DNA of 64,000 nt, taken from the NCBI GenBank assembly GCA_003134995.1, contig PLDC01000015.1, positions 248,001 to 312,000 of the forward strand, read 5' to 3'. A model generated the notes under the pieces. That model was not told where the DNA came from. It made no database searches and saw nothing but the letters and a program-made list of their open reading frames with translations. Shown piece after piece: positions 23,885 through 37,015 of the stretch. The first letter of the stretch is position 1, and every line of letters begins with the position of its first letter. Made by a program: the position numbers and the translations under genes. Source of the DNA: Acidobacteriaceae bacterium (GTDB taxonomy: Bacteria > Acidobacteriota > Terriglobia > Terriglobales > Acidobacteriaceae).

Positions 23885-24043
23885 CTAGTCCGGCGTCAGC
23901 CCGAGGTATTCTTCGCGTCCTTCAAACACCTCGTGCGCCAGTTTTTTTAGCCGCTGTTTCGGAGTGAGAGGCATGGAACCTTCAGCCGATTTCTCCTCCG
24001 TTTCGACCTTGAGTTCAAAGTTGACATTTGCATTCGCGGCCAT
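23885..24043 (-). CDS. 52-aa charged protein downstream of the TPR-CHAT gene
   Basis: A 52-codon frame (ATG at 24043, TAG at 23885) with AGAGGTGA a few bases before the ATG. The product begins MAANANVNFELKVETEEKSA and continues with a basic helix (PLTPKQRLKKLAHEVFEG) and a C-terminal EEYLGLTPD. It has no membrane segment or signal. It lies 156 bases downstream of the TPR-CHAT stop on the same strand. The ordered, non-repetitive composition and strong ribosome site make it a likely real gene. It might be a partner, substrate or regulator of the CHAT protease. The function is unknown. Confidence 0.7.
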   Translation of the reverse strand: MAANANVNFELKVETEEKSAEGSMPLTPKQRLKKLAHEVFEGREEYLGLTPD

Positions 24044-24199
24044 ACGTTCACCTCTTACTTACGAAACAGCGCGCGCACGGCTACGCCTGGATTCGCCATT
24101 TGCGGGCTTACTTCTTCATAGTGTGAGATCGCGAAGAAACGTTTCAGAGGGTTATTGGCGGTGGGGTGCCGTGCACAGCGGCGGAGGAGAAGGTAGCTC

Positions 24200-26752
24200 T
24201 CACCCTAACCGCGCGTAGAGTTGAAAAGGTGCCCAGTAGTGGGGATTGTAGAACGCGCTGTTGTGAAGCAGGGACAATTTGGCGTTGCGCAAAGCGGCAT
24301 CCGGGGCCTTGCCCTTTTGCAGTTCGTCGTAGAACTTATCCATGAGCTGCTCGGTGGAATTATCCGTCGCCTCCCATAGCGCAGCAATTACGTTGTGGGC
24401 GCCGGCGCGGAGGAATGCCCACGACAGCCCGACCAAGCCCTCGCCCGAGTACGCACGCTCGCCAGAGCTGTAGCAGGCCGAGATCGTGACCAGTTCCGCC
24501 CGTATCGGATGGCCAATGATGTCGCGAGCGTAGAGTTTGAAAGAGTCATCTTCCGCGCTGCTTTTCGAGAGCACAATCGCAGAATCGAGCGGACTCAGGC
24601 GGCTTGCCATTCCATGCGCGACAAAATGGATATAAGAAAATCGCTCGGGATTGCTGGCTAGGTAGGCTGGCGGCGTGGCGGCTTGTTGGGTAAGGATTTT
24701 CTCCTCCGCTGCCGGAAAACGGCGTGCAACACTATTCATTTGATCTTCGGCGCGTGGGAGCTGGGGATATTTGTCGTTTGGCGCGACACTGTTACCGACG
24801 AGTAGTAGATTGCGTCCTCGCTTTTCCTTATCGCGATGCGCCGCGGCGAGCACGCGCAACGAGCTGGCGTTCGCGATGGTCACGTCTTCGATCCAGTAGT
24901 GCAGCTTCGGGTCGGACGGCTTTGCTCCCGAGACGAGAAGAGTTTCGAAATTAAGATTATTCAGGCTGCCGTCGGGAATGATGAAGACCTTCGCGGTTTT
25001 TTTCAACAAGGCTTGCGCCGGCGCAACCAACGTGCGATATAGAGACTGGCCGTCTCTATCGGCCGAGGCGAGCACATCCTGCGGACCTGCGAGAGACTCG
25101 CGATAGCGCGCGACCGCCGCATCGATTTCCGCGCCCGGAGGAAGTGAAAACAAGCTCGCCTTCTGCGGCGTGATCCCCCACAGATACGATTGCTTCTCGC
25201 CCAGCCAATAGAAGAGGATGACACCGCCCGCCCGCCGCGCAACTGCTGGCGCATCGAGAGCGGCGGGCTTGAATGAAGTTTCATTTTTCTGCAGCAAGCC
25301 CAAGCCCTCGTTCAGGGTGCGTCCGCGGCTGTAGTCGGCCACCCGCAAGGCTTCGATCGATTTACCTTGAATAACGAGAAAATGGACGTAGTCGTCGTAA
25401 ATGCGCGAAGCATTGCTAAGAAACGGCAACCGTGAATCTTCGTGCTTAAGTTCGGAGCGCGCGGTTTCGAACGTGTTGAGCGCAGCACGATATTCGCTTT
25501 CGGCAGAGGCGCGCTGATTTTCGTCTTCATAGAGCCGAGCCAAGGAACGCTCGGCCTCCCACTTCAGAAAGACAGGGCAATCCGGAGATTGCGCGACTTC
25601 CAGAAATGTTTTCTCGGCGGTCGCATTATCATGCAGACGTACGGCAATTCTTCCCTGAACGAGTCGACCATAAACCTGGTCCCGCCCGTTATCGTCCTCT
25701 CGCGCTCTGGCCAGCACTTCGTCGGCGTAGCGCTTGGCATCGTTCAGCTTATCGGTTTGCTCCGAGACGGAAGCCAGGGCTATTAGAGAGTTGATTGTGA
25801 CCTCTCTGCCGTTAAGCGTTCTCGCCAAGGCAAGGGAATCGACGAAGGACTTCTCAGCGGCCTTGAAATCGTGGGTGTCCATTTCGACGTAGCCTGCATT
25901 TGTAAGCCACTTGATCCGGTCGGCGTTGCCACCGAGAGTCTCCGCTTGATTCCCGGCTTCCAAGAATAATGCCTTGGCTTTTTCTGGCTCGCCGAGCCTG
26001 TAGTACGCCCAGCCAAGACTTCCTGAAACGGCCTCTTCGATAAAGCGAAATCCCAGGGCAGTGGAAATTTGGAGTGCTGAACCGCATAAGTCGATCACGT
26101 TGTCGAAGCGTGCTTGCTCGTCAGCCGACCAGCAAAGATTCATTAAGGCACTTGCTTCAAGAAAGCGATCACCCCTGGCCCGGGCCGAGACGAGCACCTG
26201 CTCAAACAGTCTCTGCGCCTGCACGAAGCGGCCGCGATCCATCTCTTGTCCACCTCGTGCGCTAACGACAAGGGCACACGAAGAATATTCCGATCCTCGA
26301 CATAGCCTCTCCGCCTCGCTCAGGCTTTGTTCCCCGTCGCTAAACCTGTTAGAGGAGTTGAACGCCAGGCCTTCCAACCTCAATCGCTGCACGGCTAGAT
26401 CCCCAGAGGCAGGCGGCGACGGCTCGGAGATCAGGACGTTCAAGGCACGGTCACCTTTGCCTTCCCAAAGCAAAGCATTAGCCTCGAGGATTGTAAAACT
26501 CCACGCCCAATCTGAGCCGAGCCTGCTGTAGTCTTCATGACCCTTTTCTGCTTCTGTTTGCGCGCGGACCAAATCGCCTTGCTGAAAAGTGCGCGTCGCT
26601 CTTTCCAGTGCAGCTTGCGGATTCTGATGAACCGTACACCCAAGCCAGAAGATGGCTACGGCAAAGAGCCCGCTCCACATAATCAAGGTTAAGTGCCAGG
26701 GTGTGCGGCCTGGCTCTAGAACGGATTTTCGGATACCAGCAGTGCAGGGCAT
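24200..26752 (-). CDS. TPR-CHAT caspase-like protease, membrane or lipoprotein anchored
   Basis: An 850-aa protein. A hydrophobic segment (about residues 21-38) ends in WLGC with Cys39, an imperfect lipobox, so it is either a lipoprotein or has a single membrane anchor. Residues about 45-470 are tetratricopeptide-type helical repeats (for example LGWAYYRLGEPEKAKALFLE). The CHAT domain occupies about 560-850, with catalytic His713 in FVAHGM and Cys760 in TISACYSSG. GEGLVGLSWAFLRAG downstream of the Cys is typical of CHAT. CHAT domains are clan CD cysteine peptidases related to separase and caspases. The neighbouring sigma and anti-sigma-like genes suggest a signalling role. The substrate is unknown. 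Confidence 0.92.
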   Translation of the reverse strand: MPCTAGIRKSVLEPGRTPWHLTLIMWSGLFAVAIFWLGCTVHQNPQAALERATRTFQQGDLVRAQTEAEKGHEDYSRLGSDWAWSFTILEANALLWEGKGDRALNVLISEPSPPASGDLAVQRLRLEGLAFNSSNRFSDGEQSLSEAERLCRGSEYSSCALVVSARGGQEMDRGRFVQAQRLFEQVLVSARARGDRFLEASALMNLCWSADEQARFDNVIDLCGSALQISTALGFRFIEEAVSGSLGWAYYRLGEPEKAKALFLEAGNQAETLGGNADRIKWLTNAGYVEMDTHDFKAAEKSFVDSLALARTLNGREVTINSLIALASVSEQTDKLNDAKRYADEVLARAREDDNGRDQVYGRLVQGRIAVRLHDNATAEKTFLEVAQSPDCPVFLKWEAERSLARLYEDENQRASAESEYRAALNTFETARSELKHEDSRLPFLSNASRIYDDYVHFLVIQGKSIEALRVADYSRGRTLNEGLGLLQKNETSFKPAALDAPAVARRAGGVILFYWLGEKQSYLWGITPQKASLFSLPPGAEIDAAVARYRESLAGPQDVLASADRDGQSLYRTLVAPAQALLKKTAKVFIIPDGSLNNLNFETLLVSGAKPSDPKLHYWIEDVTIANASSLRVLAAAHRDKEKRGRNLLLVGNSVAPNDKYPQLPRAEDQMNSVARRFPAAEEKILTQQAATPPAYLASNPERFSYIHFVAHGMASRLSPLDSAIVLSKSSAEDDSFKLYARDIIGHPIRAELVTISACYSSGERAYSGEGLVGLSWAFLRAGAHNVIAALWEATDNSTEQLMDKFYDELQKGKAPDAALRNAKLSLLHNSAFYNPHYWAPFQLYARLG

Positions 26753-26869
26753 GACATGCGCACCTGCCGACAGAGTTTAGCTGGAAAGACGAACAATGGG
26801 AACGGAAACTGGAGGGTCGAAAATGTAGTCGCTTGCGACGCAATCCTGAGGGAGAAGGTCGCGGATGTG

Positions 26870-26902
26870 CGAGGTTCCACCTGCGAAGCAGATGGAACCC
26901 CG
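26870..26902 (-). promoter_or_regulatory. Intercistronic RNA hairpin between the 307-aa gene and TPR-CHAT
   Basis: A 15-bp stem with a 3-base loop, arms 26870-26884 and 26888-26902. The two non-Watson-Crick positions are A-C mismatches on the plus strand. In minus-strand RNA they become G-U pairs, so the stem is fully paired only in the transcript of the sigma/CHAT operon. There is no T-run, so attenuation, processing or transcript stabilisation is as likely as termination. Confidence 0.55.
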
Positions 26903-26922
26903 AAACGCGACAATTCAGATTC

Positions 26923-27846
26923 TCAGGCCTTCGATCCTGACTTCCGCTCATCAGGGGGAGGTGGAGGCCACGGATGCCCAGTGCCGTTCGGGTCTGTGTA
27001 CAGGCAACGGATGGTCCCCCGCGCTCCGCCGCCGTGCAACTCCGCGCGGATCATCTTCAGCGTGAACCTGTATTTGTACTGCTCGGCCGTCGCGGGTTCA
27101 AGCCTCGGTCCCGGGTTCACCGGGGTGCGATTTACCGTCAATTCGGAGAGGAAGATTTTGCCGAAGAATGGGATGTCGATTACGTGGCCGTACGATTTGC
27201 CCGGAGCTCCGGACACGCCGTTGACGAGGGAGCAATTCATCTCGTTCTGGCTCTGGGCCTCAGCAGGATCCCAGTTGAACTGATCGCTGGCCCACTGCGG
27301 AAGTCCGGTCATGCGCTTGATGTTGGCGTATTGGTGAGCGATGCGGCTGAAGACGCCGCCATCGTTGAAGTAGGATTCGTCGCCCTTCGGCTTGGGACCA
27401 AGAATGTCGAGCTGCGGATCGATCTCAATTTTCTGGCCGGCGATGCGAAGATTTTCGAAGCGTGTGCCGAGAAAACTTACCGAAGGCACGCTGGCGCCAA
27501 CGGCATGCTCACTCGTAATCTGCGCCACAACGCGGTCGGCAGTGAGAACGTCAAGAATGTTCACGCCTTCCAACACGGAAGTAGCCAGCGTGATTGCGCC
27601 GAGACCGTCGGAACCCTGAAAGCCCGCGACCTGGGTGTAGCCGCCCTCGTGCGAAACAATTCCCTCCAAACGAAAAGGCTCCGCCCGCTCGTATCGGTGT
27701 CCGCCCTTACGGGGCAAGTCGACGAACGCTTGCTCGCCGACCGTCCGCTGAATCGGCTGTTGAAGTTCGGCGCTGAAAACATAGGCAGTCGCGTCGTAGA
27801 CGTGACCCGTATCGAGCATGGGTAATTCATTTGCCAGAGCTGCCAT
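26923..27846 (-). CDS. 307-aa protein of unknown function in the sigma/CHAT operon
   Basis: No signal peptide or membrane segment is seen. The body is beta-rich: FRLEGIVSHEGGYTQVAGFQ, then LEGVNILDVLTADRVVAQIT and SFLGTRFENLRIAGQKIEID. The last two segments recall the repeating beta units of some surface-protein families (choice-of-anchor P type), but this is a pattern impression only. A helix-forming central part and a proline-rich tail (HPWPPPPPDE) follow. It starts 17 bases after the anti-sigma-like gene, so the two are probably co-transcribed. Possible roles are substrate or adaptor of the CHAT protease, or the sensor input. No function is assigned. Confidence 0.85.
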   Translation of the reverse strand: MAALANELPMLDTGHVYDATAYVFSAELQQPIQRTVGEQAFVDLPRKGGHRYERAEPFRLEGIVSHEGGYTQVAGFQGSDGLGAITLATSVLEGVNILDVLTADRVVAQITSEHAVGASVPSVSFLGTRFENLRIAGQKIEIDPQLDILGPKPKGDESYFNDGGVFSRIAHQYANIKRMTGLPQWASDQFNWDPAEAQSQNEMNCSLVNGVSGAPGKSYGHVIDIPFFGKIFLSELTVNRTPVNPGPRLEPATAEQYKYRFTLKMIRAELHGGGARGTIRCLYTDPNGTGHPWPPPPPDERKSGSKA

Positions 27847-27864
27847 AAAGTCTCCTTCTGCTGC

Positions 27865-28542
27865 TCAATGAATTTTTTGAAGTTCAAACGAGGGCCGACC
27901 AACTTCCTTACTTTCTCCCGCGGCGGTGATGCCGCGTACAGCCAGAATGTAGTTTCCTGCTTCTCGCGCAGCCGGGGGCACCTCCACCGGATAGTGGTCC
28001 TGCGTGGTTGACGCGGGAATCGGGAGCGTCCATTCCAGCTTTCCGGCGGGATTATACAACTCCGCTATGTATTTGGAGTAACTGGCATCCGGCTCAATTC
28101 TCGCAAAAAGCAGAAAGCCCTCGCCCGCACGAATTGAAATTACTTTTTCAGCCGATCCCCAGGCGCCGACATTTACCACAGCAAAAGGTAAAACTCGAGG
28201 ACTATTCAACGCATGCTGCAAACGCGGATACATAACCAGATTCTGATATCCGGTCACTACCAGCAACAAGGCCATCACCGGTGCCGCAAAAGCCGGACGA
28301 AACCACGCAAACCATCCAGGTTTCGCCGCAGTTGTCGCGGGTGGGGAAGCGGGAACCGGCTGAGGCGGTTCCGCTAATACCACCTTGGTCTGCTCTACGA
28401 ATAAAGCTCCAGCGCGGACGTCAACGGCGCAATCCGGGCAATCGAAATAGTGTTCCTCAAATTCCTGACGGGTCTGGTCGTCGAGTTCGCCCAGCAGATA
28501 ACGCTCCGTCAGTTTTTGACGAACCACCCCTTCGTGGTCCAT
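27865..28542 (-). CDS. Membrane zinc-finger anti-sigma-factor-like protein
   Basis: A protein of about 225 aa. The N-terminal cytoplasmic helix bundle carries the ZAS/zf-HC2 zinc motif HxxxCxxC (HYFDCPDC). After a proline/alanine linker there is one membrane segment (about PVMALLLVVTGYQNLV). The C-terminal 110 residues are extracytoplasmic and beta-rich (RAGEGFLLFARIEPD, LYNPAGKLEWTLP), resembling an Ig-like sandwich. ATG 28542 has AGGGGG about 11 bases upstream and gives a family-like N-terminus; an in-frame ATG lies at 28584. The gene follows the sigma factor directly, the standard arrangement for an ECF sigma and its inhibitor. Confidence 0.88.
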   Translation of the reverse strand: MDHEGVVRQKLTERYLLGELDDQTRQEFEEHYFDCPDCAVDVRAGALFVEQTKVVLAEPPQPVPASPPATTAAKPGWFAWFRPAFAAPVMALLLVVTGYQNLVMYPRLQHALNSPRVLPFAVVNVGAWGSAEKVISIRAGEGFLLFARIEPDASYSKYIAELYNPAGKLEWTLPIPASTTQDHYPVEVPPAAREAGNYILAVRGITAAGESKEVGRPSFELQKIH

Positions 28543-28599
28543 TGATTGAATGCCCCCTAAAAGTATAGTGACGCGCGACCCCAAAGCGTTTCACCGGCC

Positions 28600-29187
28600 T
28601 CAGGCCGAAGTAAACTCCGGCTTATCATTTCCCATATCTTTTAAATACACGGACTTAAACGCTTGCTTGGCGCGGTGCAGCAGTACGCGCAAATAATCGC
28701 GATCCACGCCAAATTCACGGCATACTTCGTCCTTGTCCCGCTCCTCCAGGAAAACCTCGCGCAGCAATCGGCGGTCCCGTTCTGAAAGCCGTTCCAATAT
28801 CTCGCGGACTTTCTTTTCCATTTCTTTCGCGGCGAGGATGGTGAGAAGGTCAGTCCCTTTAGCCGGAAACTCCCTCGGCTTCTCCTCGTCATCAAGCGAA
28901 TCGAGGCGCGATCCGGCCCGGTAATGCTCCAGCAAGACGTTGTTGCAGATGGAGTTTACGTACGAGCCCAGGCTCTCTGGTTGCAACACTCGTCCGTCGC
29001 GCAGAGCCACAAAGAATCGGGTGAAAGTTTCCTGCCGGACATCCTCAATCGCCTCGGGAGACTTCAAGCGGGAACGCAGCTTAATCTGGATCAGAGCTCC
29101 AAAATACGCGCCGAAATGCTCTTGAGCGCGGAAGTCGCCGGCTCGGAGACGCTCGAGATAGGACTGGTCGAAGGATTGAAATTGCAA
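28600..29187 (-). CDS. ECF-like RNA polymerase sigma-70 family factor
   Basis: About 195 aa from a proposed TTG start at 29187 with GGGGCAGG just upstream. Region 2 is visible in HFGAYFGALIQIKLRSRL, then EDVRQETFTRFF and the -10-recognition helix YVNSICNNVLLEHYRAGSR. Region 4 is ILERLSERDRRLLREVFLEE, then EVCREFGVDRDYLRVLLHRA. The frame stays open upstream to 29475, but the extra 96 residues do not resemble sigma factors and are probably untranslated. The length fits ECF factors. It heads an operon with the anti-sigma-like, 307-aa and probably TPR-CHAT genes. Its target promoters may include its own and the divergent protease gene. Confidence 0.9.
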   Translation of the reverse strand: MQFQSFDQSYLERLRAGDFRAQEHFGAYFGALIQIKLRSRLKSPEAIEDVRQETFTRFFVALRDGRVLQPESLGSYVNSICNNVLLEHYRAGSRLDSLDDEEKPREFPAKGTDLLTILAAKEMEKKVREILERLSERDRRLLREVFLEERDKDEVCREFGVDRDYLRVLLHRAKQAFKSVYLKDMGNDKPEFTSA

Positions 29188-29765
29188 AGACCTGCCCCGC
29201 AGACCCAGGATTGGGGAACAGTGTAGCACCGGAGCCAAACTGCGGCCATTTTCCGGGCTGAGTGCAGGCAGGAATGCGCGCTTGGAGGTAGTGCATCGGC
29301 TATGCACGTGGCCGGCAGGCGGGTTCGAGCGAGGAGTACCTACGGGAATAGCGGAGCCCATTAAAAACCTCGAACAGGAAAGACCAGACGTTGATGAGAA
29401 AGCTGCGAAAAGTGCCGGAGCCGCTTCCCCTGTCGACTCCGGCGCTCTAACGGAATCCAGCCCGGAGGTTGCCAAGCTGTAATCCTAAGTGTGCGCAATC
29501 GCCGCCATTCGGCACGATCTTTCCCACCTGTTTGGAATAGTGTCGGAAGCGCGCGAATCGTTTCACAGCACTACGACCCGAATCGAATTTTGTAACGATC
29601 GGACTGGGGCGGTCACTATCCCAGTATTGAGAAATTCGCCAGGGGTGACCATCGCAGACCAGAAGTCGGATGGCACTTTTGCCGGAGCCGCCTCGGTCTC
29701 ACTAAGGTTTCATCCCTGCGCTGAAATCTGAAGACCCGCAAAATCTGAGAAGTAGGGAGGCACAC
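29188..29765. other. Divergent regulatory region between the sigma operon and the papain gene
   Basis: Nearly 580 bases if the TTG start of the sigma gene is right. It contains the doubtful upstream extension of the sigma frame and about 290 bases with no gene. TTTGTAACGA followed 12 bases later by CGGTCA (around 29590-29620) is a loose ECF-like candidate pointing at the papain gene. GGGAGG lies five bases before the papain ATG. An 80-codon plus-strand frame here has no protein-like features. Confidence 0.4.
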
Positions 29766-31721
29766 ATGCCGAGCACTCTGAAAGCAGGCGATCTTCGCCA
29801 ATTGCTGGCGAAGGCAAACGCGAAATGGACCATCGATGAGAAGCTGAAAGACACCGATACTGTCCCAACTCATCCAACCGGGGGAGACCTCACCAAGTTC
29901 GTCAAAGTGAGCGCCGTGCCTCGCGTTGACGTTACGCCGTTCTTCAAGACCGTCACGTCCAACCCATATTTATTGCAACGCCGCATCGATCAGGGCTTTC
30001 TCAACTTGAAAGATCTGCCGATCGAATTGCAAAATCCCATCGTGCTCAAAGAGCCAGGGCCGACACCGCTAAAGAGCAACCTGCAGCCCATCGGTGGCGG
30101 CGGTGGCGGCTCGGCGGTGGACTGGAGAAATCGTTTCGGCTGGCCGTGGCTCACAAAAATCAAAGACCAGGGCGGGTGCGAATCCTGCTGGGTCTTCAGC
30201 GCAGTGGGCGTAGTTGAAGCCATGGTTCGGATCGAACATACAATCTGGAGCCTGCGCTCGGAAGGCGACGTTCACGACGGTCTGGGAGTGGGCTGTGCCC
30301 AAACCGGTGGCCCCCCGACGGCCTTCAACTGGATGCAAGCAAATGGAGTCGCGGACCCAGGCTGCTGGCCCTATGAGCAATCGAATCTGCCTTACAAGCC
30401 CACCGCCGATCGCGATGGCAGAACCGTAAAGTTGAGTGGCTACACAACCCTAAGCAACATCGACGACCAAAAGGCATGGATCGACAATGTCGGCCCACTC
30501 TCGGCCTGCTTTACTGTGTACAACGACTTTTTCTGGTACAGCTCTGGCGTGTACACGGCGAATCCTTCCACGGGAGTTGCGGGCGGTCACTGCATCGTAA
30601 TTGTGGGTTATGACGACAGCCTGCAAGCATGGCTGGTACGGAACTCCTGGAACACGGGCTGGGGCATGGCCGGCTACTGCTGGTTTGGCCATGGCCAGGC
30701 CGATATCGACAACAATGCGAAGTACGGAGTTCCGGGGGCGAACGTGAATCCGGATCCGTGGACGAAGAGGCGTGCGCACAACGGCAGCCTTTATGAGAGC
30801 GGAGACGGGCAGCTGAATCGCAACTTCGAGCTGTGGACACTCGCGCCTGGAAATGCCATCCGGCACTACTGGCGGGACGGCGTCTCATTGCAATGGAGCG
30901 TGGCTGAAACGCAGGGCAACGATTGCTATGCCAGTCCTTGCGTGACTGGCACGACTTACAACCGCAACTTCGAATACGTGTACGAGACGACGAGTCAGGG
31001 AGCGACCGGCTGCCGGTTGCACCATCGCTACTTCGACCAAGCCTCGGGAACGTGGGGCGATGGCGGGCTTTTCGGTCCGCAGGAACCGGACGATGTTGAG
31101 GGCCTGGCAGGATTTATTCAAGGCAACTACAACGCTCCCGGCAACTTCGAGGTTGTGGTTCGAACCGGCAACGGAACCCTTAAACACTGGTGGCGCGCCA
31201 ACGGACCCGGCGGCCCGATGACGTGGTCGCAGTCCGCACAGTTCGGCTCCGATATCCAACTGAGTGCAGCTTCTCTGGTGCAGCGTTTCGACGACGGCCT
31301 CGACGTAATCTGTGTCACCGCGGCTGGGGCCATGCAACGCTACTTCCGGCCATCCGCGGGCGCGGCGTGGCAGGCGTGTGAAACCTTCGCCCGCGGGGTG
31401 AGCAGCCCTCCGGTTATGATTGCAGGGCAATACGGCGCCACCGATGAAACCGTGATGGGCAACTATGAACTGTGCGTTGCCGTGGACGGCGTCATCCAGC
31501 ACTGGTGGAAGGGCAGTCCGGAAAATCTGGCATCGATCTGGACCATGAGCACAACGTTCGGTGAAAACGTGAAGCAGGTTCTGGGGCTGATCCAATCCAG
31601 CTTCGGTTTCGATCTGGAAGTGATTGCGTTGCTGAATGACGGCACGCTGCAGCACTACTGGCGCTATTCTTCGGACTTGAGCTGGCATGCTGGTCCGATT
31701 TTTGGCTCCACCGTGAGCTAG
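29766..31721 (+). CDS. Papain-family (C1A) cysteine protease with C-terminal lectin-like repeats
   Basis: A 651-aa protein. An N-terminal pro-region-like stretch (1-115) ends in a glycine run. The peptidase domain begins AVDWRNRFGWPW and has the full C1A set: Gln135 and Cys141 (DQGGCESCWVFSA), His275 (GGHCIVIVGYDD) and Asn293 (RNSWNTGWG). Residues about 353-651 contain six repeats of about 50 residues with the pattern N(F/Y)E..., then HYWR or HWWK, then W...FG, resembling PLL-type lectin propellers. No signal peptide is seen, so a cytosolic enzyme or non-classical export is possible. The inhibitor gene follows after 16 bases. Confidence 0.95.
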   Translation: MPSTLKAGDLRQLLAKANAKWTIDEKLKDTDTVPTHPTGGDLTKFVKVSAVPRVDVTPFFKTVTSNPYLLQRRIDQGFLNLKDLPIELQNPIVLKEPGPTPLKSNLQPIGGGGGGSAVDWRNRFGWPWLTKIKDQGGCESCWVFSAVGVVEAMVRIEHTIWSLRSEGDVHDGLGVGCAQTGGPPTAFNWMQANGVADPGCWPYEQSNLPYKPTADRDGRTVKLSGYTTLSNIDDQKAWIDNVGPLSACFTVYNDFFWYSSGVYTANPSTGVAGGHCIVIVGYDDSLQAWLVRNSWNTGWGMAGYCWFGHGQADIDNNAKYGVPGANVNPDPWTKRRAHNGSLYESGDGQLNRNFELWTLAPGNAIRHYWRDGVSLQWSVAETQGNDCYASPCVTGTTYNRNFEYVYETTSQGATGCRLHHRYFDQASGTWGDGGLFGPQEPDDVEGLAGFIQGNYNAPGNFEVVVRTGNGTLKHWWRANGPGGPMTWSQSAQFGSDIQLSAASLVQRFDDGLDVICVTAAGAMQRYFRPSAGAAWQACETFARGVSSPPVMIAGQYGATDETVMGNYELCVAVDGVIQHWWKGSPENLASIWTMSTTFGENVKQVLGLIQSSFGFDLEVIALLNDGTLQHYWRYSSDLSWHAGPIFGSTVS

Positions 31722-31737
31722 TCAAACGCCAACGAGT

Positions 31738-32031
31738 ATGGAAACGATAACTCTGAAACCAGGCCAGGAACATCGCATCACCCTTCCTGGCCTGGGATCC
31801 GCAGGGTATCGCTGGATGGCGGAGCCTTACGATCAGAACGTCGTGATGGTTGAAGAGATTCTGCACTCGAGAAAAGCTACGGTGCCGATCGCGGGAAGCC
31901 TGCAACAAGTATTCAGGCTGACCGCGGTAGCTCCCGGCCACACCTCCGTAAGCTTTAATCAACGAAGACGGTTCGAGCCGGAGAAGGAACCTCATGCCTC
32001 ATATGCGATCAGCGTGGCCGTGACCGCCTGA
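31738..32031 (+). CDS. Chagasin-family (I42) inhibitor of papain-like cysteine proteases
   Basis: A 97-aa beta-rich protein. The first inhibitory loop matches the family pattern in GLGSAGYRW (about residues 18-26), and the third loop, usually RPW/F, appears as RRRFEPE (about 78-84). The middle GxGG loop is degenerate (IAGSLQQ). Chagasin-type inhibitors insert these loops into the active-site cleft of C1A peptidases. There is no signal peptide, matching the neighbouring protease. The 16-base gap implies co-expression, so the inhibitor probably protects the cell from, or tunes, the adjacent enzyme. Confidence 0.9.
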   Translation: METITLKPGQEHRITLPGLGSAGYRWMAEPYDQNVVMVEEILHSRKATVPIAGSLQQVFRLTAVAPGHTSVSFNQRRRFEPEKEPHASYAISVAVTA

Positions 32032-34501: not shown

Positions 34502-34528
34502 GCCATGTTGCGTCTTGCCATGTTGCGT
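34502..34528 (+). repeat. Duplicated start-codon segment of the GH3 gene
   Basis: GCCATGTTGCGT occurs at 34502-34513 and again at 34517-34528 with a 15-base period, so the GH3 frame has two in-frame ATG starts. Either can precede the signal peptide. Confidence 0.5.
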
Positions 34529-37015
34529 AAGGTCAAAACGATTTGCCTGCTCCTTGTTTTGTTCGTGCTGCCTGCCGTGTGCCAGACTGCGCCGGTTTCG
34601 CAGGCAGCGACCGATGCCCGAGTTGATTCTCTTCTCAAACAACTGACATTGGAAGAGAAGATCGACATCATCGGCGGCGTGGACGATTTTTATATCCGCG
34701 CCATTCCGCGGATCGGCTTGCCGCGCCTGAAGATGGCCGACGGGCCAGTCGGCGTGCGGAACTACGGTCCTTCAACGGTTTTTGGAGGCATCGGCCTCGC
34801 GGCCACATGGGATCCCGAACTCGCGCAACGGATCGGCACAGTGATTGGAGAGGATGCTCGCGCTCGCGGCGTGCACTTCATGCTGGGCCCAGGCGTGAAT
34901 ATTTATCGAGCTCCATTGTGCGGCAGAAACTTTGAGTACTTTGGAGAAGATCCTTTTCTCTCGGCGCGCACCGCCGTCGCCTACATCAAGGGCATGCAAA
35001 GCCAGGGCGTGAGCGCGACCGTGAAGCACTTCATGGGCAACAACCAGGAATACGACCGGCACAACATCGATTCGATAATCGATGAGCGCACCATGCGCGA
35101 AATCTATCTGCCGGTGTTCGAAGCAGCAGTGAAAGAAGCACACGTCGGCGCGATCATGGATTCTTACAATCTCACCAATGGCGTGCACATGACGCAAAAC
35201 GGATATCTCAACAGCGATGTGGCCAAGAAAGATTGGGGCTTCACGGGAGTTCTGATGTCTGACTGGACTTCCGTTTACGACGGCGTCGCGGCGGCGAACG
35301 GCGGCCTGGACTTGGAGATGCCCTCAGGAAAATTCATGAATCGTGCGACGTTGTTGCCGGCAATTCGCGCGGGCAAAATAAGCGAGGCGACGATCGACGA
35401 TAAAGTGCGGCGCATTCTCCGCACCGCAATTCAGTTTGGATGGCTCGATCGCGAGCAAACGGACTTATCGATTCCCCGACAGAACCCTGAAGGCAAACAG
35501 GTAACGCTGGAAGCAGCGCGTGCAGGCATGGTTCTGCTCAAAAATGACGGCAACGTTCTGCCGCTGGATAAAGGCAAGCTGCGCACGATTGCAGTCATCG
35601 GCCCGGATGCCTATCCGGCAGTGCCTGCGGGCGGTGGCAGCGCCGATGCGAAACCTTTCACTCCGGTAAGTTATCTCGAAGGATTAGCGAATTATCCAGG
35701 CAGTAGTGCAAAGGTTTATTACGAGCGCGGACTCCCGACTCTCGACGAAATCGCCAAGCATACTGAATTCACTACCGAGGCAACAGGCGGCCGGCAAGGT
35801 CTAAAGACTGAGTTCTTCACCAACGCCGACCTAAGCGGCACGCCAGCCGTGAATCGCACCGACAAGCACGTTAACTATGAGCCGGCGCGCGGCGGGGGTG
35901 GCGCCGACACCGATATGTCAATCCGCTGGACGGGTTACTTCACCCCGCCAACTCCGGGCGAATATCTTGTGTTCGTTCAAGGCCCGGGAGAAAACGGCGG
36001 CTACAGGCTCTACGTAGATAAGAAGCTCGTGTTCGATAACTGGAAGACCTGGTACGCATTCGTCGGCGAGAAGACGATAGCGCTGACTGCTGGCCCGCAC
36101 CAGGTTGAACTGGATTACTATGCGCACGGCGGCTGGGGCAAGACGATGGCGAATCTCGGCATCGTGCGTCCTGAGACTTTGGTCAGCGCCGAAGCGAAGT
36201 CATTGGCCTCGCACGCCGATGCGGTAGTGCTCGCCGTGGGCTTTGATCCCGCGAGCGAAGGCGAGAGTGGTGACCGCACATTTCAACTACCTCCTGGGCA
36301 GAATGAGCTGATACATCAGATCGCCGCCGTAAACAAGAACACAGTTGTGGTCATGACATCAGGCGGCGGCGTGGATATGGCCGGTTGGGTAGATCAGGTT
36401 CCAGCGCTCTTGCAAGCGTGGTATCCCGGCCAGGAAGGCGGCACTGCGCTCGCGCAACTGCTCTTTGGCGAGTTCAATCCTTCTGGAAGATTGCCGATCT
36501 CGATCGAGAAGCGCTGGGAAGACAATGCTGTCCACGATAGCTATTACCCAAAGAATGGCGGGAAGAAAGTTGAATACACGGAAGGCGTCTTCGTGGGCTA
36601 TCGTCATTTCGACAAATCTGGAATCAAGCCGCTGTTCCCGTTCGGCTACGGACTCTCCTACACTACATTTGCTTTCAAGAATCTGACGATGTCGCCAGCC
36701 TCTGGCGAGCAACTCGTGACCGTCGCCTTCGATGTGAGCAATACCGGTGCTCGCTCCGGGGCGGAGGTCGCGCAAGTTTACGTCGGCGACAAACATGCGA
36801 AGGTTCCGCGCCCAGTGAAAGAGCTGAAGGGATTCGCAAGAGTCGAACTCAATCCCGGTGAGACCAAACACGTTCAGGTCACGTTGGATCGGCGAGCCTT
36901 TTCCTATTACGACGTAAAGAGTCACAGCTGGACTGTGGCTCCGGGCGATTTCGATATTTATGTCGCTCGATCGTCGGCGGAAATCGAACTCACCGGGAAG
37001 GCAACACTTCCATAG
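34505..37015 (+). CDS. GH3 beta-glucosidase with PA14 insertion, exported
   Basis: An 836-aa secreted glycoside hydrolase. The signal peptide is KTICLLLVLFVLPAVCQTA. The (beta/alpha)8 domain has LKMADGPVGVRN, KHFMGNNQEYDRHNID and the nucleophile Asp253 in VLMSDWTSVYDG. The alpha/beta sandwich domain follows from about 340, interrupted by a PA14 domain (about 430-570, LKTEFFTNADLSG to WGKTMANLG). The protein ends with a fibronectin III-like domain (FDVSNTGARSGAEVAQVYV). It is expected to release glucose or xylose from beta-linked oligosaccharides; PA14 may bind glycans. The aldose 1-epimerase gene follows 66 bases downstream. Confidence 0.95.
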   Translation: MLRLAMLRKVKTICLLLVLFVLPAVCQTAPVSQAATDARVDSLLKQLTLEEKIDIIGGVDDFYIRAIPRIGLPRLKMADGPVGVRNYGPSTVFGGIGLAATWDPELAQRIGTVIGEDARARGVHFMLGPGVNIYRAPLCGRNFEYFGEDPFLSARTAVAYIKGMQSQGVSATVKHFMGNNQEYDRHNIDSIIDERTMREIYLPVFEAAVKEAHVGAIMDSYNLTNGVHMTQNGYLNSDVAKKDWGFTGVLMSDWTSVYDGVAAANGGLDLEMPSGKFMNRATLLPAIRAGKISEATIDDKVRRILRTAIQFGWLDREQTDLSIPRQNPEGKQVTLEAARAGMVLLKNDGNVLPLDKGKLRTIAVIGPDAYPAVPAGGGSADAKPFTPVSYLEGLANYPGSSAKVYYERGLPTLDEIAKHTEFTTEATGGRQGLKTEFFTNADLSGTPAVNRTDKHVNYEPARGGGGADTDMSIRWTGYFTPPTPGEYLVFVQGPGENGGYRLYVDKKLVFDNWKTWYAFVGEKTIALTAGPHQVELDYYAHGGWGKTMANLGIVRPETLVSAEAKSLASHADAVVLAVGFDPASEGESGDRTFQLPPGQNELIHQIAAVNKNTVVVMTSGGGVDMAGWVDQVPALLQAWYPGQEGGTALAQLLFGEFNPSGRLPISIEKRWEDNAVHDSYYPKNGGKKVEYTEGVFVGYRHFDKSGIKPLFPFGYGLSYTTFAFKNLTMSPASGEQLVTVAFDVSNTGARSGAEVAQVYVGDKHAKVPRPVKELKGFARVELNPGETKHVQVTLDRRAFSYYDVKSHSWTVAPGDFDIYVARSSAEIELTGKATLP

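Follow-up and report, generated by a model that had tools for sequence, protein, structure and literature searches.

A conserved sigma factor, anti-sigma factor, p307 and TPR-CHAT gene block in Acidobacteria and its possible role as an envelope-sensing switch

Which genes of a divergent cluster in an acidobacterial genome belong together, and what might they do? The cluster lies in a 64,000-nucleotide stretch of contig PLDC01000015.1 (Acidobacteriaceae bacterium, assembly GCA_003134995.1), here called the window. In about 8 kb it holds genes for an extracytoplasmic function (ECF) sigma factor, a membrane anti-sigma factor, a 307-residue protein (p307), a TPR-CHAT protease, a 52-residue protein, a papain-type protease and a chagasin-type inhibitor, and an initial annotation had joined all of them in one candidate sigma-controlled proteolysis module. 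We find that the four minus-strand genes for the sigma factor, the zf-HC2 anti-sigma factor, p307 and the TPR-CHAT protein almost certainly form a conserved unit, as judged from their arrangement in related genomes, and that the other three genes are not part of it.

A four-gene block and its distribution

The genes of the block, and the element in front of them, are as follows.

28600..29187, minus strand: ECF-type sigma factor, 195 residues from a probable TTG start; TIGR02937, E-value 6.5e-13, 48.6 bits against a cut-off of 42.9
29220..29228, minus strand: TGCTACACT, resembling an extended -10 promoter element, 32 nucleotides ahead of the start codon of the sigma gene
27865..28584, minus strand: zf-HC2 membrane anti-sigma factor; PF13490, 2.6e-6
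26923..27846, minus strand: p307 (307 residues), choice-of-anchor-P-like beta protein; NF040603, 4.5e-8
24200..26752, minus strand: TPR-CHAT cysteine protease with an N-terminal export or anchor segment; PF12770, 6.9e-56

All open frames of the initial annotation are present at the positions it gave. Profile scores bear out its family calls (CHAT, zf-HC2, ECF sigma, papain of the Peptidase_C1 family and chagasin), and it named the catalytic residues correctly, His713 and Cys760 in the CHAT protein and Gln135, Cys141, His275 and Asn293 in the papain. The Pfam sigma regions match the window's sigma factor weakly, at 7e-5 and 1.2e-4, under their cut-offs. Neither p307 nor the 52-residue frame has a Pfam match.

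We gathered 121 p307 loci. Of these, 40 are from the window's order, named genomes supplied 74, and the remaining seven belong to other families of the phylum. Removal of 16 duplicates left 105 unique loci, the window not among them. By a fixed rule (sigma, anti-sigma, p307 and CHAT in this order on one strand) 94 loci are complete. The rule overlooked L178 since its frames overlap, and a follow-up search found the CHAT gene there, so the full order is present in 95 of the 105 loci; as the loci were located through p307, this and all other block counts are conditional on p307. Six of the remaining ten run into contig ends and four are real exceptions, described below.

The association extends beyond the family. 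p307 is followed by CHAT in all seven loci from outside it (six genomes, six other families of the phylum); four of these have all four genes, and two of the other three lie at a contig edge. Within the order, p307 relatives are found in 75 of 200 genomes. All 75 also encode at least one protein with a CHAT match, while 64 of the 125 others do. In a sample of the whole phylum p307 is matched in 16 of 297 genomes, with ten of the 16 belonging to the same family as the window, and the titles of the 74 named loci are all Acidobacteria, Acidobacteriaceae, Terriglobales or genera of these groups. With the anti-sigma alignment as query, 32 of 199 genomes were matched at 1e-8, many only partially. 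Among the papers listed in a literature search, none treats a sigma/anti-sigma/TPR-CHAT block of Acidobacteria and none the DdvA structure.

In two loci (L092:7171-9060 and L095:11559-13442, with the module forward) a frame of 627-629 residues, like the window's glycosidase-type protein (34505-37015), lies convergently behind the module. In L095 another related sigma gene is close by.

Features of the four genes and their products

The sigma frame as listed starts at 29475, which gives 291 residues and is probably overlong. In the homologues the common start codon sits five codons ahead of a conserved FD motif, and in the window this position, checked in the sequence, is a TTG at 29187-29185. 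Among 96 unique upstream regions the start codon is TTG in 83, GTG in ten, ATG in two and none of these in one. An extended -10 element like TGCTATACT stands at a nearly constant distance in 81 of the 96, counting at least six of eight consensus positions, against about 17 of 96 expected from shuffled upstream regions. No conserved -35 box is seen in the 96 aligned regions, and only the extended -10 of housekeeping type stands out. ECF sigma genes commonly, though not always, have a promoter of their own with conserved -35 and -10 boxes. The element here resembles a housekeeping promoter, so the sigma gene is probably not under its own control, and autoregulation was rejected as a candidate. 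The longer frame, up to 29475, is probably untranslated. That the frame stays open past the likely promoter, in the window (29187-29475) and in many other loci, could mislead gene callers on the start.

The anti-sigma protein has a zinc motif HxxxCxxC, one hydrophobic segment (with its maximum at residues 95-111 in the window) and an outer domain. The histidine and both cysteines of the motif are invariant in 39 aligned sequences, from which L073 was left out.

For the CHAT protein, 118 rows were reduced to 103 by removing 15 duplicates. The catalytic histidine is present in 97 of these and the cysteine in 98, the remainder being gaps; no row that covers the dyad has a replacement. The N-terminus, counted in 101 proteins after setting aside the short L124 and L129, is hydrophobic in 100. 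A lipobox-like cysteine is present in up to 47 of the 101, an upper figure since some of the cysteines fall inside the hydrophobic run (e.g. L066), and another cysteine in 22; 69 proteins thus have a cysteine within or behind this stretch. In the window a cysteine closes the hydrophobic stretch, and a textbook lipobox is lacking. From these N-termini the CHAT protein is predicted, with good probability, to lie outside the cytoplasm.

The AlphaFold model of the TPR-CHAT protein (predicted local distance difference test, pLDDT, 86) consists of a long helical repeat array and the CHAT domain. The loop 762-772, directly behind the catalytic cysteine, has a pLDDT below 50, which would suit an enzyme that requires activation. 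When this model was compared with the PDB by Foldseek, the top match over the whole length was DdvA (8rw5, E-value 2.6e-14, template modelling score 0.53, in part a reflection of the common TPR and CHAT architecture), followed by Csx29 and separase. The CHAT profile matches the DdvA sequence weakly (0.0036), with histidine and cysteine in register near its C-terminus. The CHAT alignments used for folding and for the PDB search held 27 and 18 of the 40 available rows.

In a tree, 45 module CHATs fall on one side of a branch and 33 other CHATs of the phylum on the other, with a support of 100 in the Shimodaira-Hasegawa-like approximate likelihood ratio test. The trees were made without L091, with its CHAT in two frames, and L125, at a contig end. 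The best 30 loci of other CHATs of the order, with flanks of about 1.5 kb, show no sigma gene or p307 alongside; three have weak anti-sigma matches. The CHATs of all these loci fall outside the module group. The window's genome (5.6 Mb) has one CHAT match in all, compared with 9 to 11 per genome in G125, G080, G168, G118 and G187.

The third partner, p307, scores 33.3 bits in the window against the NCBIfam choice-of-anchor P model (NF040603, cut-off 27). The p307 proteins of G028 and G260 also pass this cut-off, and the model has no match in three p307-bearing genomes, G014, G016 and G026, of a 149-genome sample. Higher-scoring members elsewhere in the phylum have signal peptides (seen by eye in L251, L252, L258, L259 and L261 among seven viewed), whereas a hydrophobic N-terminus, looked for as the mark of a signal peptide, is absent from all 105 p307 sequences. 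At the other end, an NG pair is found in the tail of 95 of the 105, followed by exactly four final residues in 60; the end of the window's protein is longer than that of these relatives. Two cysteine columns tend to occur together, with both present in 76 sequences, neither in ten and one in 19 (n=105, the rows being related), and in this alignment the window's protein has the first only. The paired columns are a faint hint of an oxidising compartment, and we give a location of p307 in the periplasm about even odds.

The fold of p307 is modelled with confidence (pLDDT 89). Against solved and viral structures the template modelling score was at most 0.2 among the 50 matches listed per library, and its profile gave nothing below an E-value of 1 among PDB sequences. 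A gasdermin-like fold was dropped, as no gasdermin is among the 50 PDB matches listed; this is a list result and not a direct comparison.

A possible switch and its alternatives

A link between CHAT and the anti-sigma factor is also seen in another order, that of genome G268, in which we surveyed 30 sigma loci, one per genome, with flanks of about 1.5 kb. An anti-sigma match is present in 29 of the 30 and a CHAT match within about 1.5 kb in 15. In ten of the 15, CHAT lies directly ahead of the sigma gene in the same orientation, in the rest mostly on the opposite strand. Five more of the 30 loci, all those in which a long anti-sigma frame (478-503 residues) ran off the short locus, proved in longer stretches to hold fusions.

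L292:3616-7170, L293:3958-7548, L294:2500-6147, L295:4188-7898, L296:7143-10670: anti-sigma/transmembrane/TPR/CHAT fusions

These DdvA-like proteins of 1175-1236 residues combine an anti-sigma region, one transmembrane helix, TPR and CHAT, and are encoded beside the sigma gene. The histidine and cysteine motifs of CHAT are kept in all five. A sixth stretch, L297 from another genome, does not hold a fusion, and no p307 was found in the fetched fusion loci. Such fusions argue that anti-sigma factor and CHAT work together, and they place the CHAT part behind the membrane helix. When the fused and split forms were added to the tree, the module CHATs were again apart (45 against 37), and module, fused and split CHATs formed three separate groups. 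The association would thus have arisen in more than one CHAT lineage; a single lineage for all three forms is not supported by this tree.

We propose that the block encodes an envelope-sensing sigma switch in which a periplasmic TPR-CHAT protease cuts the anti-sigma factor to free the sigma factor, and give this reading a probability of about 0.58. That CHAT acts on the anti-sigma factor in one way or another is quite likely. In the resting cell the anti-sigma factor would keep the sigma factor at the inner membrane. On an envelope signal, read through its TPR array, the exported CHAT protein would become active as a cysteine protease and cut the outer part of the anti-sigma factor close to the membrane. 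Intramembrane and cytoplasmic proteolysis of the ordinary kind would come next, freeing the sigma factor to turn on its regulon. p307 may tune the switch: TPR-CHAT might bind it as a ligand, cut it as a substrate or be inhibited by it, or p307 might instead partner the sigma factor in the cytoplasm. The housekeeping-type extended -10 promoter and the weak start codon would keep the sigma factor scarce relative to its inhibitor.

Several observations weigh against this proposal. Four loci depart from the block. L063 keeps intact sigma, anti-sigma and p307 genes but no module CHAT within the fetched stretch, which makes it a natural case of p307 without its protease. L067 and L129 lack the sigma/anti-sigma pair beside p307 and CHAT, and in L088 the anti-sigma gene is behind CHAT and sigma is missing. 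The search through p307 itself conditions the block counts. In seven anti-sigma loci without p307, CHAT is beside the pair in two (L244, L245), about 3 kb from it in L249, and was not found in four, some of which are near contig ends. The case for export is weakened by 32 of 101 CHAT N-termini without a cysteine, and the chance rate for the lipobox was drawn from less hydrophobic parts of these proteins. p307 lacks a signal peptide yet is partnered with an apparently exported CHAT, which the proposed switch leaves unexplained. Autoregulation of the sigma factor is usual in ECF pairs, and the aligned upstream regions show no sign of it. The structural score to DdvA owes part of its height to architecture, CHATs from the other order, whether fused or split, lie outside the module group, and common descent of the module with DdvA or with the fusions does not follow from the fusion evidence.

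L244:8713-15048 and L245:8626-15118 encode, in this order, a C11 clostripain-type protease, TPR-CHAT, sigma and anti-sigma, i.e. two cysteine proteases per sigma block.

The switch might also work without cutting. Here the periplasmic TPR-CHAT protein would be a co-inhibitor or ligand sensor on the outer domain of the anti-sigma factor, and the sigma factor would be released through altered shape or oligomerisation instead of proteolysis. TPR-CHAT is part of the anti-sigma protein itself in the five fusions, which suits a sensor domain, and DdvA is called dimeric in an entry title. The His-Cys dyad, never replaced in the module rows that cover it and kept in all five fusions, argues against a pure sensor, which would be expected to lose these residues in places. 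We regard such a sensor as possible though doubtful.

In a second alternative CHAT cuts p307, one of the two targets considered in the initial annotation, and p307 would be a sigma inhibitor like Csx30. It draws on Craspase, whose TPR-CHAT protease is described as cutting the sigma inhibitor Csx30 (PMC10028731), and on gene order, since CHAT follows p307 in every locus uncut on that side except L063. The distance correlations of p307 point the same way in part, reaching their highest value with the sigma factor (0.42) and also a high one, 0.36, with the second TPR half, while the partial correlation with the CHAT domain is negative (-0.24); these values are exploratory, as the pairs are non-independent, neighbours in a block may correlate regardless and many pairs were examined. 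With CHAT predicted to be exported and p307 lacking a signal peptide, the predicted compartments differ and clipping of p307 by CHAT becomes less likely. In addition, p307 is choice-of-anchor-P-like and the block already has a zf-HC2 anti-sigma factor. We consider this alternative unlikely.

A further variant would resemble separase and securin. In it p307 would cross the inner membrane without a classical signal and, with its conserved C-terminal NG tail docked on the TPR array, hold the CHAT lipoprotein off until an envelope signal displaces or consumes it; the freed CHAT would then make the first cut in the anti-sigma factor. The correlation of p307 with the TPR (0.36), the conserved tail and the co-occurring cysteine columns are hints only, and we hold the variant to be quite unlikely.

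The trigger could also be a phage, with the switch sensing infection, as in Craspase, or driving defence genes, as DdvS does. DdvS is described as controlling an antiphage island (PMC12288465) and target RNA as activating Craspase (PMC10028731). PADLOC, in contrast, has no family for the sigma factor, the anti-sigma factor or p307 and matches CHAT only with a generic TPR model (2.6e-4). No p307 match was found at an E-value of 1e-5 in plasmid and phage records, and no CRISPR gene is in the four-gene block, although no search was aimed at Cas genes or CRISPR. A role in phage defence is very unlikely.

The weakest alternative returns to the 8-kb module of the initial annotation, of which the four minus-strand genes from 24200 to 29187 are conserved and the following three fall away.

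29766..31721, plus strand: C1A papain-type protease whose C-terminal part matches DUF346; PF00112, 1.6e-36, and PF03984, 5.6e-5
31738..32031, plus strand: chagasin-family (I42) inhibitor; PF09394, 1.9e-13
23885..24043, minus strand: 52-residue frame, outside the conserved module

None of the three was found in any of the 121 module loci (E-value 0.01), and papain and chagasin were rejected as parts of the unit. The 52-residue frame was rejected likewise; it was seen in one of 60 genomes, its own, with no relative in the 59 other genomes of the order, although so short a protein can escape detection. Papain relatives (E-value 1e-10) occur in nine of 150 genomes of the order, the window's own included. 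A chagasin frame is in the same short locus in six of the eight other cases (L205-L209 and L212, two of them convergent and the other four co-oriented). Because chagasin accompanies papain relatives elsewhere, the two look like a protease-inhibitor pair of their own and seemingly unrelated neighbours of the block. In the three other genomes with both papain and p307 (G086, G116 and G118) the two genes are on separate contigs or some 210 kb from each other. The co-occurrence check suggested by the initial annotation, run here, thus shows that, in terms of linkage, the sigma/CHAT genes and the papain/chagasin genes occur independently. That the sigma factor has the papain/chagasin pair under its control as well, so that all form a single proteolysis module, is suggested by the divergent papain and sigma genes of this one window (578 bases between the start codons), and is hardly credible with block and pair never together in 121 loci and papain paired with chagasin elsewhere.

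Comparison with known systems

The proposed switch, in which TPR-CHAT cuts the anti-sigma factor, has precedents for a TPR-CHAT protein tied to a sigma/inhibitor pair: Craspase (PMC10028731), the system to which the initial annotation had pointed, and, by structure, DdvA. In the DdvS/DdvA system of Myxococcus xanthus an ECF sigma factor is kept off by an anti-sigma factor, and according to the same account the signal inactivating DdvA was not known as of 2015 (PMC4374960). The PDB entries 8rot, 8rw5 and 8rlz were assigned to M. xanthus DdvA by entry name. Like the products of the block, DdvA has an ECF sigma factor as partner; it is titled a transmembrane anti-sigma factor and has its CHAT match at the C-terminal end. 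It differs in carrying anti-sigma and TPR-CHAT on one protein of 991 residues, whereas the window has two genes, the CHAT enzyme being separate and apparently exported, and p307 is added. A 90-residue DdvA chain matches the module anti-sigma factor insignificantly (0.95). With separate anti-sigma and TPR-CHAT genes and with p307, the block is not DdvA in the strict sense, though it may work in a DdvA-like way.

Craspase comprises Csx29, Csx30 and the CASP sigma factor of type III-E CRISPR (PMC10028731), and shares with the block a TPR-CHAT protease tied to an ECF-like sigma factor and its inhibitor. In contrast to Craspase, the window has a CHAT with a predicted place outside the cytoplasm and a membrane zf-HC2 protein as inhibitor. 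Its four-gene block has no Cas7-11, for which, as for other Cas genes and CRISPR, no dedicated search was made. The window's CHAT scores 16.9 bits against the Csx29 model NF041237, whose cut-off is 300, so by this model the block is not Craspase.

In CalpL/CalpT/CalpS a protease is reported to cut an anti-sigma factor bound to an ECF sigma factor (PMC11417357). CalpL, however, is a SAVED-Lon protease activated by cyclic tetra-adenylate and not a TPR-CHAT protein. Craspase and CalpL/T/S, in both of which a protease relieves an ECF sigma factor of its inhibitor, are looser parallels to the proposed switch than DdvS/DdvA. RsiW is a membrane anti-sigma factor that is cut first on the outer side and then further. 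The proposed switch resembles RsiW and RseA in this order of events, an outer-side cut of a membrane anti-sigma factor being followed by more. The proteolysis of RseA involves DegS, RseP and ClpXP (as cited in PMC10028731), and its first cut is made by DegS, not by a CHAT enzyme.

The block is present in named strains, with loci from the harmless soil bacteria Terracidiphilus gabretensis (L174), Granulicella aggregans (L185), Edaphobacter lichenicola (L197), Silvibacterium bohemicum (L201) and Acidicapsa dinghuensis (L203). It encodes the anti-sigma factor, the candidate protease and the third partner in separate genes, so their roles can be examined one by one. p307, with a confident model for which no solved relative was found, gains a defined genetic setting from the block.

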